DNA of 38,873 bases from Blastopirellula marina (GTDB lineage Bacteria > Planctomycetota > Planctomycetia > Pirellulales > Thermoguttaceae): contig DYLS01000035.1 of NCBI GenBank assembly GCA_020721965.1, positions 4,914-43,786 on the forward strand, written 5' to 3'. The notes below the pieces were generated by a model. That model was not told where the DNA came from, did no database searches, and saw only the letters and a list, made by a program, of their open reading frames with translations. Every line of letters begins with the position of its first letter. The stretch's first letter is position 1. A program made the position numbers and the translations under genes. Below, piece after piece: positions 160-18,462 of the stretch.

Positions 160-1161
160 TCATGCAGCACCGGCTTGAGGTGGAAACGCCGCGCCGCGCG
201 ATTGCCGCCACTCATCCATAGTGCCCGTAGGATCCAGCTCCTCCGCCCAGGCGTCGGACAGGCAATCGACCGTCGTGCTCAAACCTCGCCACCAAGCATG
301 CAGCAACGGTGACGCGGCGTCCTGCCAGGCCGTGACCTCTACCGGTCCGAGTTGCGGTCCCGAGTCCGGTCCCGAGGGCGTCTGCGAACAGAACCGTGAT
401 TGCAAACCGGCCGAGCGATGGTCCACGTCCGAGAAAGGCGGGAGCCCCTCTGGCACCCACGGCAGACCCGCCCAAACGGGGACCTCTTGGGCGAGGAATC
501 GCCGTGCCGCCGTCTGGATGCGTTCGGATGCCTCGGCCAGGGACATATCCTCGGTCAGACCGTTGAATACGATGGCCGTACGTTGCAAGACCCCAACTTT
601 ATCGGCCGATTTGAGCCACGCATACGCCTGCATAAGCCCTGGCGGGTCAACGGCAGCCACCAGCAGAATACGGCCGTTGCGGGCCTCGGATTCGGCATCG
701 GCAGGCGATCGCGTGCCCAGGTCGATCACGCGCAGGCTCAATCGGGTGGAGGCACTGGCCACCTCTGGGCCGCAAAGCTCCTGCCCCAGCCAAAACGCTG
801 TGCCCCAATCTTTGTGTTCTGGTTCGCCGGGGAAGACCAAATCCGGCAGGGGATCGCCCTTTTGAGTTCGCGATCGGCCGGGATTTTCACAGGACAGTGA
901 CACATCCCAGCCGCTGCCGACGAACAGCCTCGCTAGCCCCAGGCATATTGCGGAGCATCCCACGCCAGAGCGTGCCCCGAATACCGCCACAACGGGACGT
1001 GGCCTCCCTGCGGGCGCACCCCCTTTCGAGGCCTTCCGGCGCAGTACCAATTGTCGTAAGCGAAAGGCTTGATCCTGCTGCACGTGCACACCACACCTCG
1101 AAACCGCACCGTTCTCCGTCACACCCTCAACGGTCGTCGCTTGGCCCTGCCCTACCCTCAC
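160..1161 (-). CDS. FlhG/MinD-like P-loop protein with degenerate Walker A
   Basis: This 333-residue protein directly follows flhF, the place where flhG (fleN, ylxH) normally sits. FlhG is a MinD-type ATPase that antagonises FlhF and controls flagellar number and position. After a ~55-residue leader, a hydrophobic strand VVAVFGA leads into a P-loop-like GARSGVGCS at residues 62-70, and a later VIDLG resembles the Walker B strand. MinD-type proteins normally have KGGVGKT/S here; both lysines are missing (Arg64 and Cys69), so ATP binding is doubtful. The C-terminal ~100 residues are poorly conserved. The start is a GTG 44 bp below flhF's stop; a weak ribosome site makes it uncertain. I infer an flhG homologue that has lost or changed its ATPase; a generic ParA-like relic is the alternative. 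Confidence 0.72.
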   Translation of the reverse strand: MRVGQGQATTVEGVTENGAVSRCGVHVQQDQAFRLRQLVLRRKASKGGAPAGRPRPVVAVFGARSGVGCSAICLGLARLFVGSGWDVSLSCENPGRSRTQKGDPLPDLVFPGEPEHKDWGTAFWLGQELCGPEVASASTRLSLRVIDLGTRSPADAESEARNGRILLVAAVDPPGLMQAYAWLKSADKVGVLQRTAIVFNGLTEDMSLAEASERIQTAARRFLAQEVPVWAGLPWVPEGLPPFSDVDHRSAGLQSRFCSQTPSGPDSGPQLGPVEVTAWQDAASPLLHAWWRGLSTTVDCLSDAWAEELDPTGTMDEWRQSRGAAFPPQAGAA

Positions 1162-1205: not shown

Positions 1206-2414
1206 CTACGAGGCTGTACCGGCGACGTTTTCGAGTCGCAGGATCATGCGAGCCAGCTTGCCCGCGTCGGCGACCTCGATGTCATCCGGGACGTTTTGAC
1301 CGTTTGTCAGATAGCTTAAGGGAAGTCGCCCTTCGCTGAGCACCGGTAGCAATCCGCCTAACGACGGGGCCTCATCCAGCTTGGTCAAGAGCAGGGCCGT
1401 GGGCGAGGCCGTTTGAAAATGATCGATGATCTGCCGCAGCGCCTTGGCTCCCACGACGCTACTGATCACCAGATGGACTTCATCGGCCCGCGCCTCGTTC
1501 AGAATCGCCCGCAATTCTCGGATCTTGATTTCATCCTTTGGGCTACGACCGGCCGTATCGATCAATATGAGGTCGAACCCGGCGAAGCGCTGCACCGCTT
1601 CACGCATCTCGCGCGGAGCGGATACCACCTGCATCGGCAGATCGATGATCTCGGCGTAGGTGCGGAGCTGCTCTACCGCGGCGATTCGGTAAGTGTCCAC
1701 GGTGATCAATCCGACCCGACGGTTCTCACGGAGGCGAAAATTGGCGGCCAGCTTGGCGATGGTGGTGGTCTTGCCAACACCCGTCGGCCCGATCAAAGCT
1801 GCCACCCGCCGCTGCCCACGGCTCAAGCGGATGGGACCGCACACCGCCAATTCGCTTTCCACCATGCGCGCAATCCGCGTCTTGAGAAGGGCAGGCTCCT
1901 CGATGTGGTCGCAGGCAGCGTCAACGCGGACCCGTTCCACCCAATTGCGGGCCTCCTCTTCGCTCAAATCGGCGTCGATCAAATCCGCGTACAGCCGGAA
2001 CAGTCCTTCCGGCCAATCGCGTCCGGACTGTGTCCCATTGCGGCAGCACAATTCGTGGAGCATGTGCTCCATGCTCTCTAGACGGCTGCGGACTTCACGG
2101 ACGGACGCCTCGCCGTGCAGGGCAAGATTTCGCGTCTCCGCACTCGGAGACTCCAGGTTCAAACCCGCCTCCCCAAAGGCCACCAGAGGAGCCGTGAGCG
2201 CATCGCGAGGCGGCTCCAACGATGGCAGCCGACTCGGAACATTCACCGACGCCGAGGCTGTGACCTCGATCTTGCGAGGTCCGGGCAGCAATCCAAACCA
2301 CCGCGAGGTGCGGACCTCGCGGGTCCTCAGGATCGCGGCGTCGGGGCCTAACTCCCGTCGCACAAGAGCCAATGCCTCATGCATCGTGTCGGCGCGAAAG
2401 GTGTGCACTTCCAT
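1206..2414 (-). CDS. flhF: Flagellar biosynthesis GTPase FlhF
   Basis: FlhF is an SRP-type GTPase that sets the location of new flagella at the membrane, usually working with FlhG. The 402-residue protein has the expected order: N-terminal B domain with the family start MEVHTFRADTMHEAL, a variable linker, the helical N domain (about 105-195) and the G domain. G-domain motifs visible are G1 GPTGVGKTTT (209-218), the DTYRIAAVEQLRTYAEI segment (240-256), G3 DTAGRS (286-291) and G4 TKLD (344-347). Length is normal for the family. It is followed by the flhG-like gene after 44 bp and preceded by flhA, separated by a spacer with a 12-bp tandem array. Start is an ATG matching the family N terminus. 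Confidence 0.96.
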   Translation of the reverse strand: MEVHTFRADTMHEALALVRRELGPDAAILRTREVRTSRWFGLLPGPRKIEVTASASVNVPSRLPSLEPPRDALTAPLVAFGEAGLNLESPSAETRNLALHGEASVREVRSRLESMEHMLHELCCRNGTQSGRDWPEGLFRLYADLIDADLSEEEARNWVERVRVDAACDHIEEPALLKTRIARMVESELAVCGPIRLSRGQRRVAALIGPTGVGKTTTIAKLAANFRLRENRRVGLITVDTYRIAAVEQLRTYAEIIDLPMQVVSAPREMREAVQRFAGFDLILIDTAGRSPKDEIKIRELRAILNEARADEVHLVISSVVGAKALRQIIDHFQTASPTALLLTKLDEAPSLGGLLPVLSEGRLPLSYLTNGQNVPDDIEVADAGKLARMILRLENVAGTAS

Positions 2415-11218: not shown

Positions 11219-12088
11219 TCACCCCGCTTGCTTTTGCCGAGCTGCTTCCCCCGTGTATTGGGCAAAGACCTTGCGAAAGGCATGAGAAGCACTGGTAGGC
11301 GAGGATCGCTGCCAGACCGCCAACAGCTCCTCCACTTCTGTTGCTTCGGTCAATTCTGCGAGAGTTTCGGCACCGTCCACGCTCACGCAAGCCAACACGA
11401 GCTTTCGTCCAAAACGAATGACGCAGAGCCGTTGCCGTCCATTCAACGGAATCTGGCCCAAGACTTCCACCATCTCGCTTGGGATTCCTGCCATCCCTTT
11501 TCCAACCCCGCGTCGCATCAACCAGGCGAAGACAAGAAAGATTCCCAGGACGATGGCCAGGGCGCTGATGGTTGTGGTGATCGGCCCGAAGTTCACGGCC
11601 GCCGAGCGACCCTTCGTCCCTTGATTCGCGGTGGAAGGAGGCAGCCGAAGCTGCTGATCAAGAGATGCGGCAGGCGCCTTTTCTGCCCCGTCGCCAGCCC
11701 CGCGCGTCACATCCTCGGAAAGCCTCACCGTCTCGCCGCCCGTTGAATCGGTTCCTCTCGCAGAAGGTGAATAAGGCGATGCATGCGGATGCGGTTGGGC
11801 AGCCTCGCCCGTGCCACCTCTCGACGCCGCTTGCTCGGCCAGCCACGCGGCATTTCCCAAGGACCGGGTGGCTCCAGCCTCGGGAGTATGCCCGCCCGCC
11901 GCTACAGGGGAATCCCACGGGTTGCCCCCACCGGATTGAGCTGAATTACCGGACATGGGAGGCAACGACTGCGGCCCAGGTGGCCAGACAGGCCCTTGCG
12001 CCCAAACCGTCCCTTTTGCCCAAACCGGCTGGAGCAACAGGGCTAGCGCAAACCAGACCAAGGCCCGCCGGCGAAGTCGTTCGTTCAT
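11219..12088 (-). CDS. fliO: FliO-like flagellar export assembly protein
   Basis: FliO is a bitopic protein that stabilises FliP during export-gate assembly and is poorly conserved. The 289-residue product from ATG 12088 starts with a signal peptide (NERLRRR, then ALVWFALALLLQ, cleavage near VWA), continues with ~150 low-complexity Gly/Pro/Ser/Ala residues, has one membrane helix (TISALAIVLGIFLVFAWLM), and ends in a FliO-type cytosolic domain with MVEVLGQIPLNGRQRLCVIRFGRKLVLA. The name rests on that domain and on the fliN-fliO-fliP position. The open frame extends to 12169, but the signal peptide argues for 12088. It is longer than typical FliO because of the periplasmic linker. Confidence 0.85.
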   Translation of the reverse strand: MNERLRRRALVWFALALLLQPVWAKGTVWAQGPVWPPGPQSLPPMSGNSAQSGGGNPWDSPVAAGGHTPEAGATRSLGNAAWLAEQAASRGGTGEAAQPHPHASPYSPSARGTDSTGGETVRLSEDVTRGAGDGAEKAPAASLDQQLRLPPSTANQGTKGRSAAVNFGPITTTISALAIVLGIFLVFAWLMRRGVGKGMAGIPSEMVEVLGQIPLNGRQRLCVIRFGRKLVLACVSVDGAETLAELTEATEVEELLAVWQRSSPTSASHAFRKVFAQYTGEAARQKQAG

Positions 12089-12103
12089 GGCTGCAAGAAG
12101 CTT

Positions 12104-12121
12104 CGTCCTCGATCGAGGACG
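12104..12121. promoter_or_regulatory. Perfect 18-bp palindrome before the fliO start
   Basis: The arms CGTCCTCGA and TCGAGGACG are exact reverse complements with no spacer. The site lies 15 bp upstream of the proposed fliO ATG, where it could act as an operator or as an RNA hairpin over the ribosome site. If fliO starts at the upstream in-frame codon instead, it is simply coding sequence. Confidence 0.3.
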
Positions 12122-12259
12122 GCGACTCGTTCTTTTCCAATCCCGCGAACGTATCCGCATCCCTGCCATCCTGTCGCAAAGGGCGCCCGACTTAACGTCG
12201 CATACATTCCATGCCCCCGCCGCTGGCCAAAGCGCCGAACGGTTCGGCCGATCTTCGCA

Positions 12260-13006
12260 TTACTCGATCGGTTCGGCCACCGGCTCCTGTCCCGCCACCA
12301 GTTCAGCAACGCGGACGCAGAAGTTATCGTTCAGTACCAAGACCTCACCCCGGGCGACCAATCGCCCGTTGATGTAAATATCCACCGGGTCGCCAGCCAG
12401 TTTGTCGAGGGGCACGACGGCTCCATGACGCAACCGCAAGACATCCTCGAGATACATCCGCGTCCGCCCCAGTTCGATTTTGACCTCCAGCTCCACCTCT
12501 TTGATGAGGTCGAGCGTCGCGGTCTCAGTTGAGGGAGGTGCCCCGCCAAACTCCGGAAGCTGAAATGCCATTACCCCCGGCGGCAGTGTCGAATCTCCGG
12601 TATTCAGCGAAGCAATGGCCTGTTCCGCTTGCCGCAGCAGATACTCCAGGTCCTGGCCGGGGATTTCCGAATCCGCTGCAACCGACTCGGCCTCCGACGG
12701 CGGTCGTTTCACAGGCTGCGGTGGCTGGGTGGAAGAACGGCCGCTCTTTTGCAACAGACGTTCGATTTCGCTTTGCTCGAGGATCTTATCCGCGTCTGGG
12801 TCAGAGTGCGATGCTGCATTGGATTGCGGCACATCGCTTCCCCGCACGGCACTCATCAAGGATTCGATCTCAGCCTGATTCAAGGCTTGATCGGACTGGG
12901 CCGCTGGCTGGCCGGCTCCGCCCTTGTTCGGCGGGGCCTGCTCCTGTTTACTCTGGGCCAACAGTTTTTCGATTTCGGACTGATTTAATAGATCGTCGCC
13001 CGACAT
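12260..13006 (-). CDS. fliN: Flagellar switch protein FliN with three FliM-type N-terminal motifs
   Basis: FliN is a C-ring protein that helps reverse motor direction and docks the FliH export complex. The C-terminal ~80 residues (about 165-245) form a SpoA domain: [40 protein letters not shown] and [14 protein letters not shown]. The N-terminal ~130 residues are unusual: [10 protein letters not shown] (7-16), [10 protein letters not shown] (42-51) and [10 protein letters not shown] (76-85), plus a decayed LEYLL near 120, separated by Gln/Pro/Ser-rich linkers. This LxQxEIxxLL pattern is the CheY-P-binding peptide normally found once at the N terminus of FliM (and of FliY). fliM, normally between fliL and fliN, is absent; only 139 non-coding bp lie there. 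Length 248 versus about 137 for a typical FliN. Confidence 0.92.
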
Positions 13007-13145: not shown

Positions 13146-13781
13146 TCACTGCTCGATGAACGAGAATTCGCTGAAAACCACGGTCCGCAGGTAAGGCTTG
13201 CCCAAGGCATGGTTAGTTTTCTCTAAAATCTTCCTTTTGATCAAGCCCAAACCGGCATCCGTCAGGTCCGACAGCTCCGCGCTCCGGACGATCACCAGGA
13301 TTTGATCCCGGAGCCGATTCACGTTCTTGTTCCACTGATCCGTAAACTCTTGCGATTGCTTCTCCCCCACGGTCCCCCACAAATGGAAGTCGATGCGTAA
13401 GGTGGTTTGGCTTGTCGGCTGAAACGAGGTCACACTGAAATCGCCCAAATCGACCTCTACCTCATCACCATTTCCAGGCACCCCCAAATTGGTGGTGGGG
13501 TCCAGTTTTGTCTCTGGGACATCGACCGAGCTGTCTTGCTGCGTCGCTTGGGTCTCCTCGGGTTTAGCTAGGCTCTGCGGTTCCATCGTGCCCGCCGCAC
13601 TCGAACCTGGGAGAAGAAAGTATGCGGCAATTGCCTCCGCTGCGACCAATCCCAGAACGAAGGCAACCAGCTTGAGTTTACCGAAGAGATTGGCTTTCCC
13701 TGTGGGCTTGGAACTCTCTTCCGAAACCTGTTTTTCTTCTGCCGCTTGGTTATTCTTCTTGGGAGCTTCCTGTTTCGCCAT
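13146..13781 (-). CDS. fliL: Flagellar basal body-associated protein FliL
   Basis: FliL surrounds or supports the MotAB stator and affects torque and swarming. The 211-residue protein has a charged Lys/Glu/Gln-rich cytosolic tail, one membrane helix (about 38-56, LVAFVLGLVAAEAIAAYFLL), an acidic linker and a periplasmic SPFH-like FliL domain with VEVDLGDFSV, TTLRIDFHLWGTV and the C-terminal RTVVFSEFSFIEQ. GGGGGAAGT precedes the ATG. It follows motA-motB and precedes fliN; a 222-bp upstream spacer with a hairpin and a possible -24/-12 site suggests it begins its own transcription unit. Confidence 0.88.
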   Translation of the reverse strand: MAKQEAPKKNNQAAEEKQVSEESSKPTGKANLFGKLKLVAFVLGLVAAEAIAAYFLLPGSSAAGTMEPQSLAKPEETQATQQDSSVDVPETKLDPTTNLGVPGNGDEVEVDLGDFSVTSFQPTSQTTLRIDFHLWGTVGEKQSQEFTDQWNKNVNRLRDQILVIVRSAELSDLTDAGLGLIKRKILEKTNHALGKPYLRTVVFSEFSFIEQ

Positions 13782-16008: not shown

Positions 16009-18462
16009 TCAACGCCGCAACGACAATAATTCATCCAACATTTGCTGGGCAGTGGATATTACGCGAGTATTCCCCCGATACATCGATGAGGCCAAGATCA
16101 GGTCGATCAGGCTTGCACCGATGTCGGTGTTGGAGAGTTCCACGGCGCCAGCGACCAAAGTACCGATCCCCTGCTCTCCCGGATTGCCGATGACCGGCAG
16201 GCCCGAATTGACCCCTTCCGCGTAGAGGTTCTGCCCACGCTGCACCAGACCCGTGGGATTGGCAAACCGGGCCAAGACCATCTGTCCCAGATCCCGCGTC
16301 ACCCCGTTGGAGAACACGCCGCGAATCAGGCCGTCTTCGCCAATGATGAAGCTCGTCAACACGCCGGGCGCCGAGCCGTCTTGTCGGGACACCATCAACG
16401 TGCTGGAATCTGCCGCCAATCCGGAGATCTTGGAGAAATCCAACTGGAACTCCAGAGGAGACCGTGCCGACACGTGCCGCCGCTCAACCGAAATGCGGTT
16501 GTTCGTGGCCGATATGAAATTCCCCTCCCCGTCGAAAGAGATCAAACCCGTGCCGACCGAAATCTCGCTGCCGGAAATCGGATCGTTATCCGCCGAATCC
16601 GCAAACCACCGATAAACCGTGGAGGTGCTGTCCCGGCTCTCCAATACCGCAGTGAGCCGCACACGGAGGGGAATACCCAAGGAATCGTACACCAGGAAGT
16701 CAGTCACGGCGCTTTCGCCCACTGCCTCCTGAAGAGTCGTCCAGGGCATGTTGATGGTCGAGGTCGTACCATCGCTTTGCCGCAAAAGCATGCCAGACAA
16801 ACCGATATCAATCGCATTATCGATTCCGTTGTTTCCCGTCAGGATGATCCGGCCGTCCGTGCTCACCAGTCCACCGGGGCTCGTTGCAGGTGGCGCTGGC
16901 GGATCGGGAGGCGGCGACAAAGGAATGGGGTTCGAGGGGTCGTCCGTGGGCAACTGGATGCCCATCGCATCGACCATGAAATCAATCAGGTCTTGCACGG
17001 TCGACGTGGAGGAAATGACGAACTCCTTTCCCGACAAGGCACGGCCACCCTTGCGTCCCGTGAATTCCAGCACGCCCTCCTGAAACACCGGCTCATACGT
17101 TGATCCATCTCGCCGCAACACGTTCACGAGCAAGGTGGACGGGATGATCTTCGGTCCGTCCATGTCCAGAATTGGCTGCGACGTTAAATCGGCGTCGGAC
17201 AGATTGTCCACCAGGACCACATTCGGGTCCGTCACGCCGCTGATGGTCGTCACCAGGTGATACTCGGTGTCCAACGGATTGTAGCGATAGATGTAACGGT
17301 TATCCCAATCCACGGCGCTTCCCGTGGGCAGGTTGGTGAGCACGACGCGGCCATTGATCACGTTGATGGGATCGCTGACAGGGCTGGGACGGCTGATTCG
17401 CCCATCCTTTTCGAAGGCCACGTAATACGAATAGTTGCCGCTCAGCAGGGTCGTATCTAGCGCGGGGCCTAACGCGGCATCGGCCTTGGTATCGGTGTAA
17501 CTCGTCGTACCCATAGCGACCTCGTCCACATACTGGAAATCGCCGCCGCCTCCAGACACCCGACGATAGATTCGCACGTGGGAATACGTCCCCGGTGGCA
17601 CGCTCGGCAAGTTGTTGAGGACGACGGAGTCGTCGCCCGGCCCTACCGTCACCGTCCGCGTGCTGGAATAGACGCCCTCGCTGAATGCCGGGGGATCCGC
17701 TGGAGGAGGCGGCGAGTAGGCCGTGGTCGCGTACACAAGACGGTACTCGTAAGTCGTGCCGGCCACCAATCCGCCGCCGCTGACGGTGCTATTCAGCAGC
17801 ATCCCGCCGACGCTCGGCTCGCTGGCGTATCCGACACTGGCTTTCGTGGCCGGGCGAGTGTACCGCCCATCGCCCAGCACACCCGTCTGAATGCGAGCGG
17901 CCGTCGTCGCCAAATCCCCCGTCGGAGACAGCGTACCCTCCAGATAGACGTTCTCCGTCGCCTTGGCCACCGCTTCGGACCCCAGCGGGATCGTGATCGA
18001 TGACAGCTCGGTTCGTTGCACTTCGAAGTTATCGTCGATCCCGTAACCCAGCACCCGGTTTCCCGTAACCGTTACCATCTCGTTGGCGGAATTGAGCTTG
18101 AAGATGCCGTTGCGGGTATAGAGCCGCTCGTTTTGTTGACCTTCCACGATGAAAAAACCGTCGCCTTGAATCGCCATGTCGGTTGGATTGGAACTGATTT
18201 CAATCGTGCCCTGGTTGAAATTGGGTGTGATGTCGGCGACCATCGTGCCCAAGCCGATTTGCCTGGGATTGGTGCCGCCCGTGTCATCCGTGGGCATGGC
18301 GCCCAAGGCCAGGGTCTGCAAAAACTGCGTGGCAAAGGCCACGTTGGAGGCCTTGAACCCGACGGTGTTCGAGTTGGCCAAGTTGTTGCCCACCACGTCG
18401 ATCGTGGTTTCCGAAGCCGTCAAGCCGGTCAGGGCCGTGGTTAAAGCCGATGCCAAACCCAT
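16009..18462 (-). CDS. flgE: Flagellar hook protein FlgE with tandem Fn3-like insert
   Basis: FlgE polymerises into the hook. The N terminus (ASALTTALTGL, then VVGNNLANSNTVGFKAS) and C terminus (VELSNTDIGASLIDLILAS and STAQQMLDELLSL) are the standard D0 coiled-coil parts of rod/hook proteins. At 817 residues it is about twice the enterobacterial length. Much of the excess is at residues 232-432, where two related beta-rich blocks follow one another: YEYRLVY...RIYRR...YVDEV...SYTD (232-335) and YSYYVAF...RYIYRYN...LVTTI...VLVDNLSDADL (340-432), resembling fibronectin type III repeats. A Pro-rich linker lies at about 515-535. The SD GGAGG precedes ATG 18462. It would form an enlarged, outward-facing hook domain. 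Confidence 0.94.
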   Translation of the reverse strand: MGLASALTTALTGLTASETTIDVVGNNLANSNTVGFKASNVAFATQFLQTLALGAMPTDDTGGTNPRQIGLGTMVADITPNFNQGTIEISSNPTDMAIQGDGFFIVEGQQNERLYTRNGIFKLNSANEMVTVTGNRVLGYGIDDNFEVQRTELSSITIPLGSEAVAKATENVYLEGTLSPTGDLATTAARIQTGVLGDGRYTRPATKASVGYASEPSVGGMLLNSTVSGGGLVAGTTYEYRLVYATTAYSPPPPADPPAFSEGVYSSTRTVTVGPGDDSVVLNNLPSVPPGTYSHVRIYRRVSGGGGDFQYVDEVAMGTTSYTDTKADAALGPALDTTLLSGNYSYYVAFEKDGRISRPSPVSDPINVINGRVVLTNLPTGSAVDWDNRYIYRYNPLDTEYHLVTTISGVTDPNVVLVDNLSDADLTSQPILDMDGPKIIPSTLLVNVLRRDGSTYEPVFQEGVLEFTGRKGGRALSGKEFVISSTSTVQDLIDFMVDAMGIQLPTDDPSNPIPLSPPPDPPAPPATSPGGLVSTDGRIILTGNNGIDNAIDIGLSGMLLRQSDGTTSTINMPWTTLQEAVGESAVTDFLVYDSLGIPLRVRLTAVLESRDSTSTVYRWFADSADNDPISGSEISVGTGLISFDGEGNFISATNNRISVERRHVSARSPLEFQLDFSKISGLAADSSTLMVSRQDGSAPGVLTSFIIGEDGLIRGVFSNGVTRDLGQMVLARFANPTGLVQRGQNLYAEGVNSGLPVIGNPGEQGIGTLVAGAVELSNTDIGASLIDLILASSMYRGNTRVISTAQQMLDELLSLRR

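Follow-up and report, generated by a model that had tools for sequence, protein, structure and literature searches.

Tandem EIDAL-type motifs in a planctomycete FliN are conserved, go with chemotaxis and probably supplement the CheY docking site of FliM

In the standard picture of the flagellar motor, phosphorylated CheY (CheY-P) docks first on one peptide of FliM. FliY carries a single EIDAL motif, and the EIDAL residues themselves are also the contact for FlhG, a MinD-like regulator of flagellar number. As far as their accessible text goes, published accounts place the EIDAL motif in FliM and FliY (PMC9126983), and describe the alpha4-beta5-alpha5 face of CheY as its contact surface with the FliM N-terminal peptide, FliMN (PMC11528121). 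For FlhG, the partner described in monotrichous species is FliM/N, contacted via the N-terminus of FliM, whereas in B. subtilis it is FliY (PMC12826062). FliM-FliN3 protomers, with three FliN for each FliM, are reported in an accessible part of a further paper, together with scattered occurrences of complete or degenerate EIDAL motifs among the FliN proteins of 12 species (PMC6946799). Tandem motifs in FliN appear nowhere in the literature that we searched by title and start of abstract, with most subscription journals outside its scope, and this is no proof of absence.

The window analyzed here is a stretch of 38,873 nucleotides of Blastopirellula marina (contig DYLS01000035.1), whose minus strand carries motA, motB, fliL, fliN, fliO, fliP, fliR, and flhB, with flhA and flhF further on. 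The fliN gene (12260..13006, minus strand; the plus strand contains stops here) translates into 248 residues, with a SpoA (FliMN_C) domain at residues 167-237 (12296..12508, minus; PF01052, E 2.4e-23). This domain is of the FliN type and lies above the curated cut-off (TIGR02480, 102.8 bits, and PF01052). The gene is in a flagellar context, with fliL upstream (13146..13781, minus; PF03748, E 7.9e-06, over cut-off), and fliO (11219..12169, minus; PF04347, E 1.2e-09) and fliP downstream. Pfam matches only PF01052 in the protein, which has neither the PF02154 middle domain of a FliM nor, between motif and SpoA, the CheC-like phosphatase domain of a FliY. Solved C-ring FliN chains (8umd_D and others) align to the SpoA region, from residue 148 to 241, and none of the solved chains matches the motif region. 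Elsewhere on the minus strand of the window, positions 16009-18462 encode a long protein (817 aa) with FlgE-type hook domains. Another SpoA protein, 342 aa long, is encoded at G000:C63:5007-5216 (L003:757-1785), and may be SctQ from a type III secretion system of its own; a similar second SpoA match occurs in many genomes of the order.

Three FliM-type motifs, evenly spaced on flexible linkers, had been predicted for this FliN. Translation confirms them at residues 7-16 (12959..12988), 42-51 (12854..12883), and 76-85 (12752..12781), all on the minus strand, at distances of 35 and 34 residues and with the SpoA domain C-terminal of them. A degenerate fourth copy (residues 115-124; 12635..12664, minus) opens the predicted SpoA-proximal helix (117-135) right before SpoA, in which D119, L123, A127, A130, and S133 are invariant. 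The structure prediction is based on a 34-sequence alignment, and because its mean pLDDT is 66.5 and its pTM 0.31, only local features are used. Predicted helices lie over all three motifs (9-21, 44-54, and 78-87), with low-confidence linkers around them, in which pLDDT falls below 50 at 27-41, 63-71, 89-92, and 105-112. In alignment A1, Q9, L15, and L16 of the first motif are invariant, and Q78, I81, and L84 of the third nearly so. By sequence pattern and predicted helix, the three copies look like EIDAL-type peptides. When the 164 N-terminal residues are shuffled 100,000 times, two strict motifs never arise and one arises in 14 cases. Across the whole genome, a degenerate DNA version of the motif has seven matches, versus one for a reversed control: two FliN copies, the FliM copy, one long unrelated ORF, and three in other reading frames. 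Motif 2 falls outside this pattern because it ends in LM.

The original prediction also held that fliM is missing from the operon. This stands, as no fliM is present on the window's contig, but it does not extend to the genome, where a whole-genome search finds a single, full FliM on contig C312 (PF02154, E 2.8e-66; it starts MSSDDVLTQAEIESLLAG). It carries its own motif, LTQAEIESLL, in one copy near the N terminus, and loss of fliM is therefore rejected. The gene is set apart from the main flagellar cluster and follows closely on an ORF that we take to be proA. FliM is over cut-off in 76 of the 97 genomes of the order, and the strict motif is present in 29 of its 30 best-scoring FliM loci, mostly as LSQAEVESLL. 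In seven genomes (G002, G042, G059, G110, G113, G117, and G119) fliN and fliM share a contig, separated by hundreds of kilobases or more (for instance at 1.10 and 0.17 Mb in G002, and at 1.79 and 6.08 Mb in G042); in the remaining genomes with both matches listed, they are on different contigs. That the operon lacks fliM is therefore a matter of gene order in this group and not a loss.

The array is a genuine feature, is conserved, and goes with chemotaxis. The order provides 88 FliN loci, of which 81 have an uncut N terminus (seven are cut); setting aside eight divergent FliN with zero motifs leaves 73, one of them (L062) cut in its C-terminal part. Aligning and counting the planctomycete homologues, as had been proposed, shows that the tandem is conserved: before the SpoA-proximal helix, 60 of the 73 contain one strict motif or more, and 47 contain two or more. 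The copy number is zero in 13 (several with degenerate copies), one in 13, two in 36, three in 10, and four in one. The SpoA-proximal helix itself fits the strict pattern in 17 of the 73, and is left out of these counts. The strict pattern fixes Q3 by definition and restricts the other positions, and among 119 motif instances I6 is found in 111, E7 in 111, L9 in 115, and L10 in 104. Within the 190 residues before SpoA, there are 133 strict matches of all kinds versus a shuffle mean of 0.0045, a figure that expresses non-randomness and not independent events, because the sequences share descent.

Such repeats could be a relic, a functionless expansion of one ancestral N-terminal motif. This would fit the variation in copy number and in spacing (23 to 107 residues among FliN of the order), and the single strict motifs found in nine of 49 FliN from the phylum's other orders and classes. 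We nevertheless consider it very improbable, since conservation is higher in the motifs than in the linkers and copies are few where CheA is absent. Over 21 pairs of FliN, identity is 391/470 in the motifs versus 693/1402 in the linkers, with 849/1302 in the 62-residue block before SpoA and 1496/1692 in SpoA; the pairs are hand-picked and partly overlapping, and the motifs are placed by the first member, which somewhat favors them. These pooled figures include the 3'-cut partner L062 (0/84 in SpoA) and the 5'-cut partner L008. The 49 FliN from elsewhere in the phylum represent 49 of the 62 further genomes that match TIGR02480 (the best 30 loci minus the window's own, plus 20 chosen). None has two strict motifs, although some with exactly one add a second, degenerate copy, and two FliN of the same class (G174 and G195) have two degenerate motifs each. 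A homology search in named genomes returned only four loci. In a comparison phylum, none of the 30 best-scoring FliN has a strict motif; as 66 of its 100 genomes are over cut-off, these cover under half of the matching FliN. Judged by eye, a single degenerate QDDIDALL/M motif is present in four of the 30 (L224, L226, L227, and L229), which may be a parallel.

Copy number follows chemotaxis. With PF02895 as the marker of CheA, 62 of the 97 genomes of the order are positive; this is a single domain model whose scores are mostly modest, and some CheA may have escaped it. The table joining FliN and CheA has 77 rows, of which 71 are used, the six dropped being cut and all CheA-positive; G065 (CheA-negative, split over contig ends), L285, and L286 are left out by hand. 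Restriction to at least 130 bits removes 14 rows with zero motifs (three CheA-positive, 11 CheA-negative), leaving 57 genomes with a non-divergent FliN. Two or more strict motifs are found in 34 of the 40 CheA-positive genomes versus one of the 17 CheA-negative ones (Fisher p 1.9e-8), and in 34/43 versus 1/28 when divergent FliN are included (p 9.1e-11). The contrast weakens with a looser pattern (34/40 versus 4/17). Permuting labels within families only gives p 0.0012 for the non-divergent set and 0.0002 with divergent FliN. A four-state model of correlated evolution was fitted on one single-gene FliN tree of 57 rows, from which the motif region had been excluded; the likelihood ratio is 28.2 (p 1.1e-5) for the strict pattern and 14.0 (p 0.007) for the looser one. 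Only three independent pairs lie on supported branches, with the motif trait as expected in 2.6 on average; three are too few for a sign test to reach significance (median p 0.25). Genome completeness does not detectably differ between the CheA-positive and CheA-negative sets (p 0.34), and among genomes at least 95% complete the counts for two or more motifs are 24/30 versus 1/13. In genomes of at most 30 contigs, all 14 CheA-positive ones have two motifs, and all three CheA-negative ones have zero strict motifs. Exceptions on the CheA-positive side are G045 (none), G076 (one degenerate), G025, G037, G055, and G111 (one strict each), and G056, G080, and G121 (divergent FliN, zero motifs); G079 is the CheA-negative exception, with two. 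The motifs also go with chemotaxis, as would be expected of CheY-docking EIDAL peptides (34/40 versus 1/17, weaker with the looser pattern). We also observe that 28 of the 71 genomes with uncut FliN, from several families, have no detected CheA domain, and flagella without chemotaxis may therefore be frequent in the order.

The motif of FliM behaves differently in many CheA-negative genomes. The contrast is drawn in the non-divergent set, with the FliM of G047 outside it and G105 (FliM, no FliN row) skipped. Sixteen of its CheA-negative genomes have a readable FliM, and the strict FliM motif is found in 12 of them; any strict FliN motif is found in seven and two or more in one. Among CheA-positive genomes, 24 of 25 have the strict FliM motif, and 20 of 24 have a FliN with two or more. 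The FliM difference between CheA-positive and CheA-negative genomes has p 0.067. Beside the eight divergent FliN (seven CheA-negative genomes, one CheA-positive), the strict FliM motif is found in 0/8, so FliM motifs are not kept everywhere. The suggestion that FliN takes over from a missing FliM is not supported, FliM being intact here and its strict motif present in 24 of the 25 CheA-positive relatives examined. The other half of the original prediction, that FliN supplements a distant fliM, is the better supported: fliM lies elsewhere, the FliN motifs are conserved, and their number tracks CheA. A normal FliM encoded elsewhere, one of two outcomes that together had been named as refuting the prediction, was thus found; the other, a lack of conservation of the FliN motifs, was not. 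A division of labor can be envisaged, in which the FliN array is the main CheY-P input and the FliM motif is kept chiefly for FlhG-mediated C-ring assembly. It would explain why, without CheA and with an ordinary FliN, the FliM motif is mostly kept and FliN copies are few. It is less likely because FliM has no strict motif in the eight genomes with divergent FliN, and we regard it as doubtful.

Candidate partners are encoded in the genome. A che cluster on contig C146 contains cheA, cheR, cheW, cheD, and a single-domain receiver that matches solved CheY chains (4hns, E 2e-31; 1jbe, 3.7e-29), which we take to be those of Vibrio and E. coli. The aligned part includes YLVKPFTADTLREKL, a stretch that presumably lies in the FliM-docking face of CheY. 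In the window, flhF (1206..2414, minus; TIGR03499 over cut-off) is followed by a probable flhG (160..1161, minus), called by its DQAFRLR (DQAxxLR) motif and weak similarity to relatives' DQAxxLR proteins; the product has no Pfam or NCBIfam match. Its Walker A is degraded to GARSGVGCSA, and this FlhG may have lost the ability to cycle with ATP. Of the 20 relatives' regions examined downstream of fliN, six encode a DQAxxLR protein. Four of these have a Walker A of the form KGGVGT(T/S), and G085 has KGDVGVTT; the same-genus relative G002 is also altered, with VQVGVGATT.

The main rival to CheY-P docking is that FlhG docks on the FliN motifs during C-ring assembly. FlhG interacts with FliM/N and FliY (accessible text of PMC12826062), flhF and the probable flhG are encoded downstream of fliN here, and the eight genomes with divergent FliN, seven of them CheA-negative, have no strict motif in FliM either. 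This reading is weakened by the way FliN copy number follows CheA, and by the 16 CheA-negative genomes in which the FliM motif is kept in 12 and two or more FliN motifs in one. In addition, DQAxxLR proteins occur in G085 (CheA-negative, no FliN motif) and in G015 (no strict FliN motif, CheA not scored), within the 20 regions checked downstream of fliN. FlhG was sought only in those regions and seen in six, so this evidence is thin; on balance we judge it unlikely.

Docking of CheY-P is the simplest mechanism for the FliN motifs, and judging from sequence it would add to FliM rather than replace it. The array is likely to be a multivalent docking array: with three copies in this FliN, and tandem copies going with CheA, docking sites on the motor are probably multiplied. 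The N-terminal arm of FliN would be disordered and carry, typically in this order, two to four short helical EIDAL-type peptides, and we infer that each may be one docking site for CheY-P, while FliM would be retained, encoded elsewhere, with its single site. If there are three FliN per FliM here, as in the protomers of PMC6946799, a stoichiometry that we likewise infer for this organism, each protomer of the window organism would have ten docking peptides instead of one. Such an array would raise local CheY-P at the C-ring, bound CheY-P would be passed on to FliM/FliN, and switching might thereby become more sensitive or better buffered. Alternatively, the motifs might be buffering decoys, which bind CheY-P without driving switching and set the threshold of the motor. 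The conservation and CheA data fit productive and sequestering sites alike. However, FliN in the C-ring would put CheY-P beside FliM, which would favor a productive role and makes decoys, in our view, distinctly unlikely. If the docking array is confirmed, the input stage of the motor would exist here in a natural, multivalent form, which would offer a comparative test of docking-site number as the setter of sensitivity. It would also help to tell the CheY role of the EIDAL motif from its FlhG role, as the copies in FliN and the one in FliM differ in behavior in many CheA-negative genomes.

The array can finally be set beside the known systems. The FliM N-terminal CheY-binding peptide (FliMN, EIDAL) has the same ten-residue pattern as the FliN motifs, but FliM of the window organism has one copy near its N terminus, whereas FliN has three on linkers. 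According to the accessible text, FliY of Bacillus and Thermotoga combines a FliN-type C terminus with an EIDAL motif, as the window's FliN does (PMC12826062; PMC9126983). FliY also has a CheC-like domain, whereas in this FliN SpoA is the only Pfam match. EIDAL motifs in FliN, single or degenerate, are already known, and the accessible part of their description mentions no tandem copies (PMC6946799); the FliN described here differs from them by a tandem array that is conserved within the order and associated with CheA.
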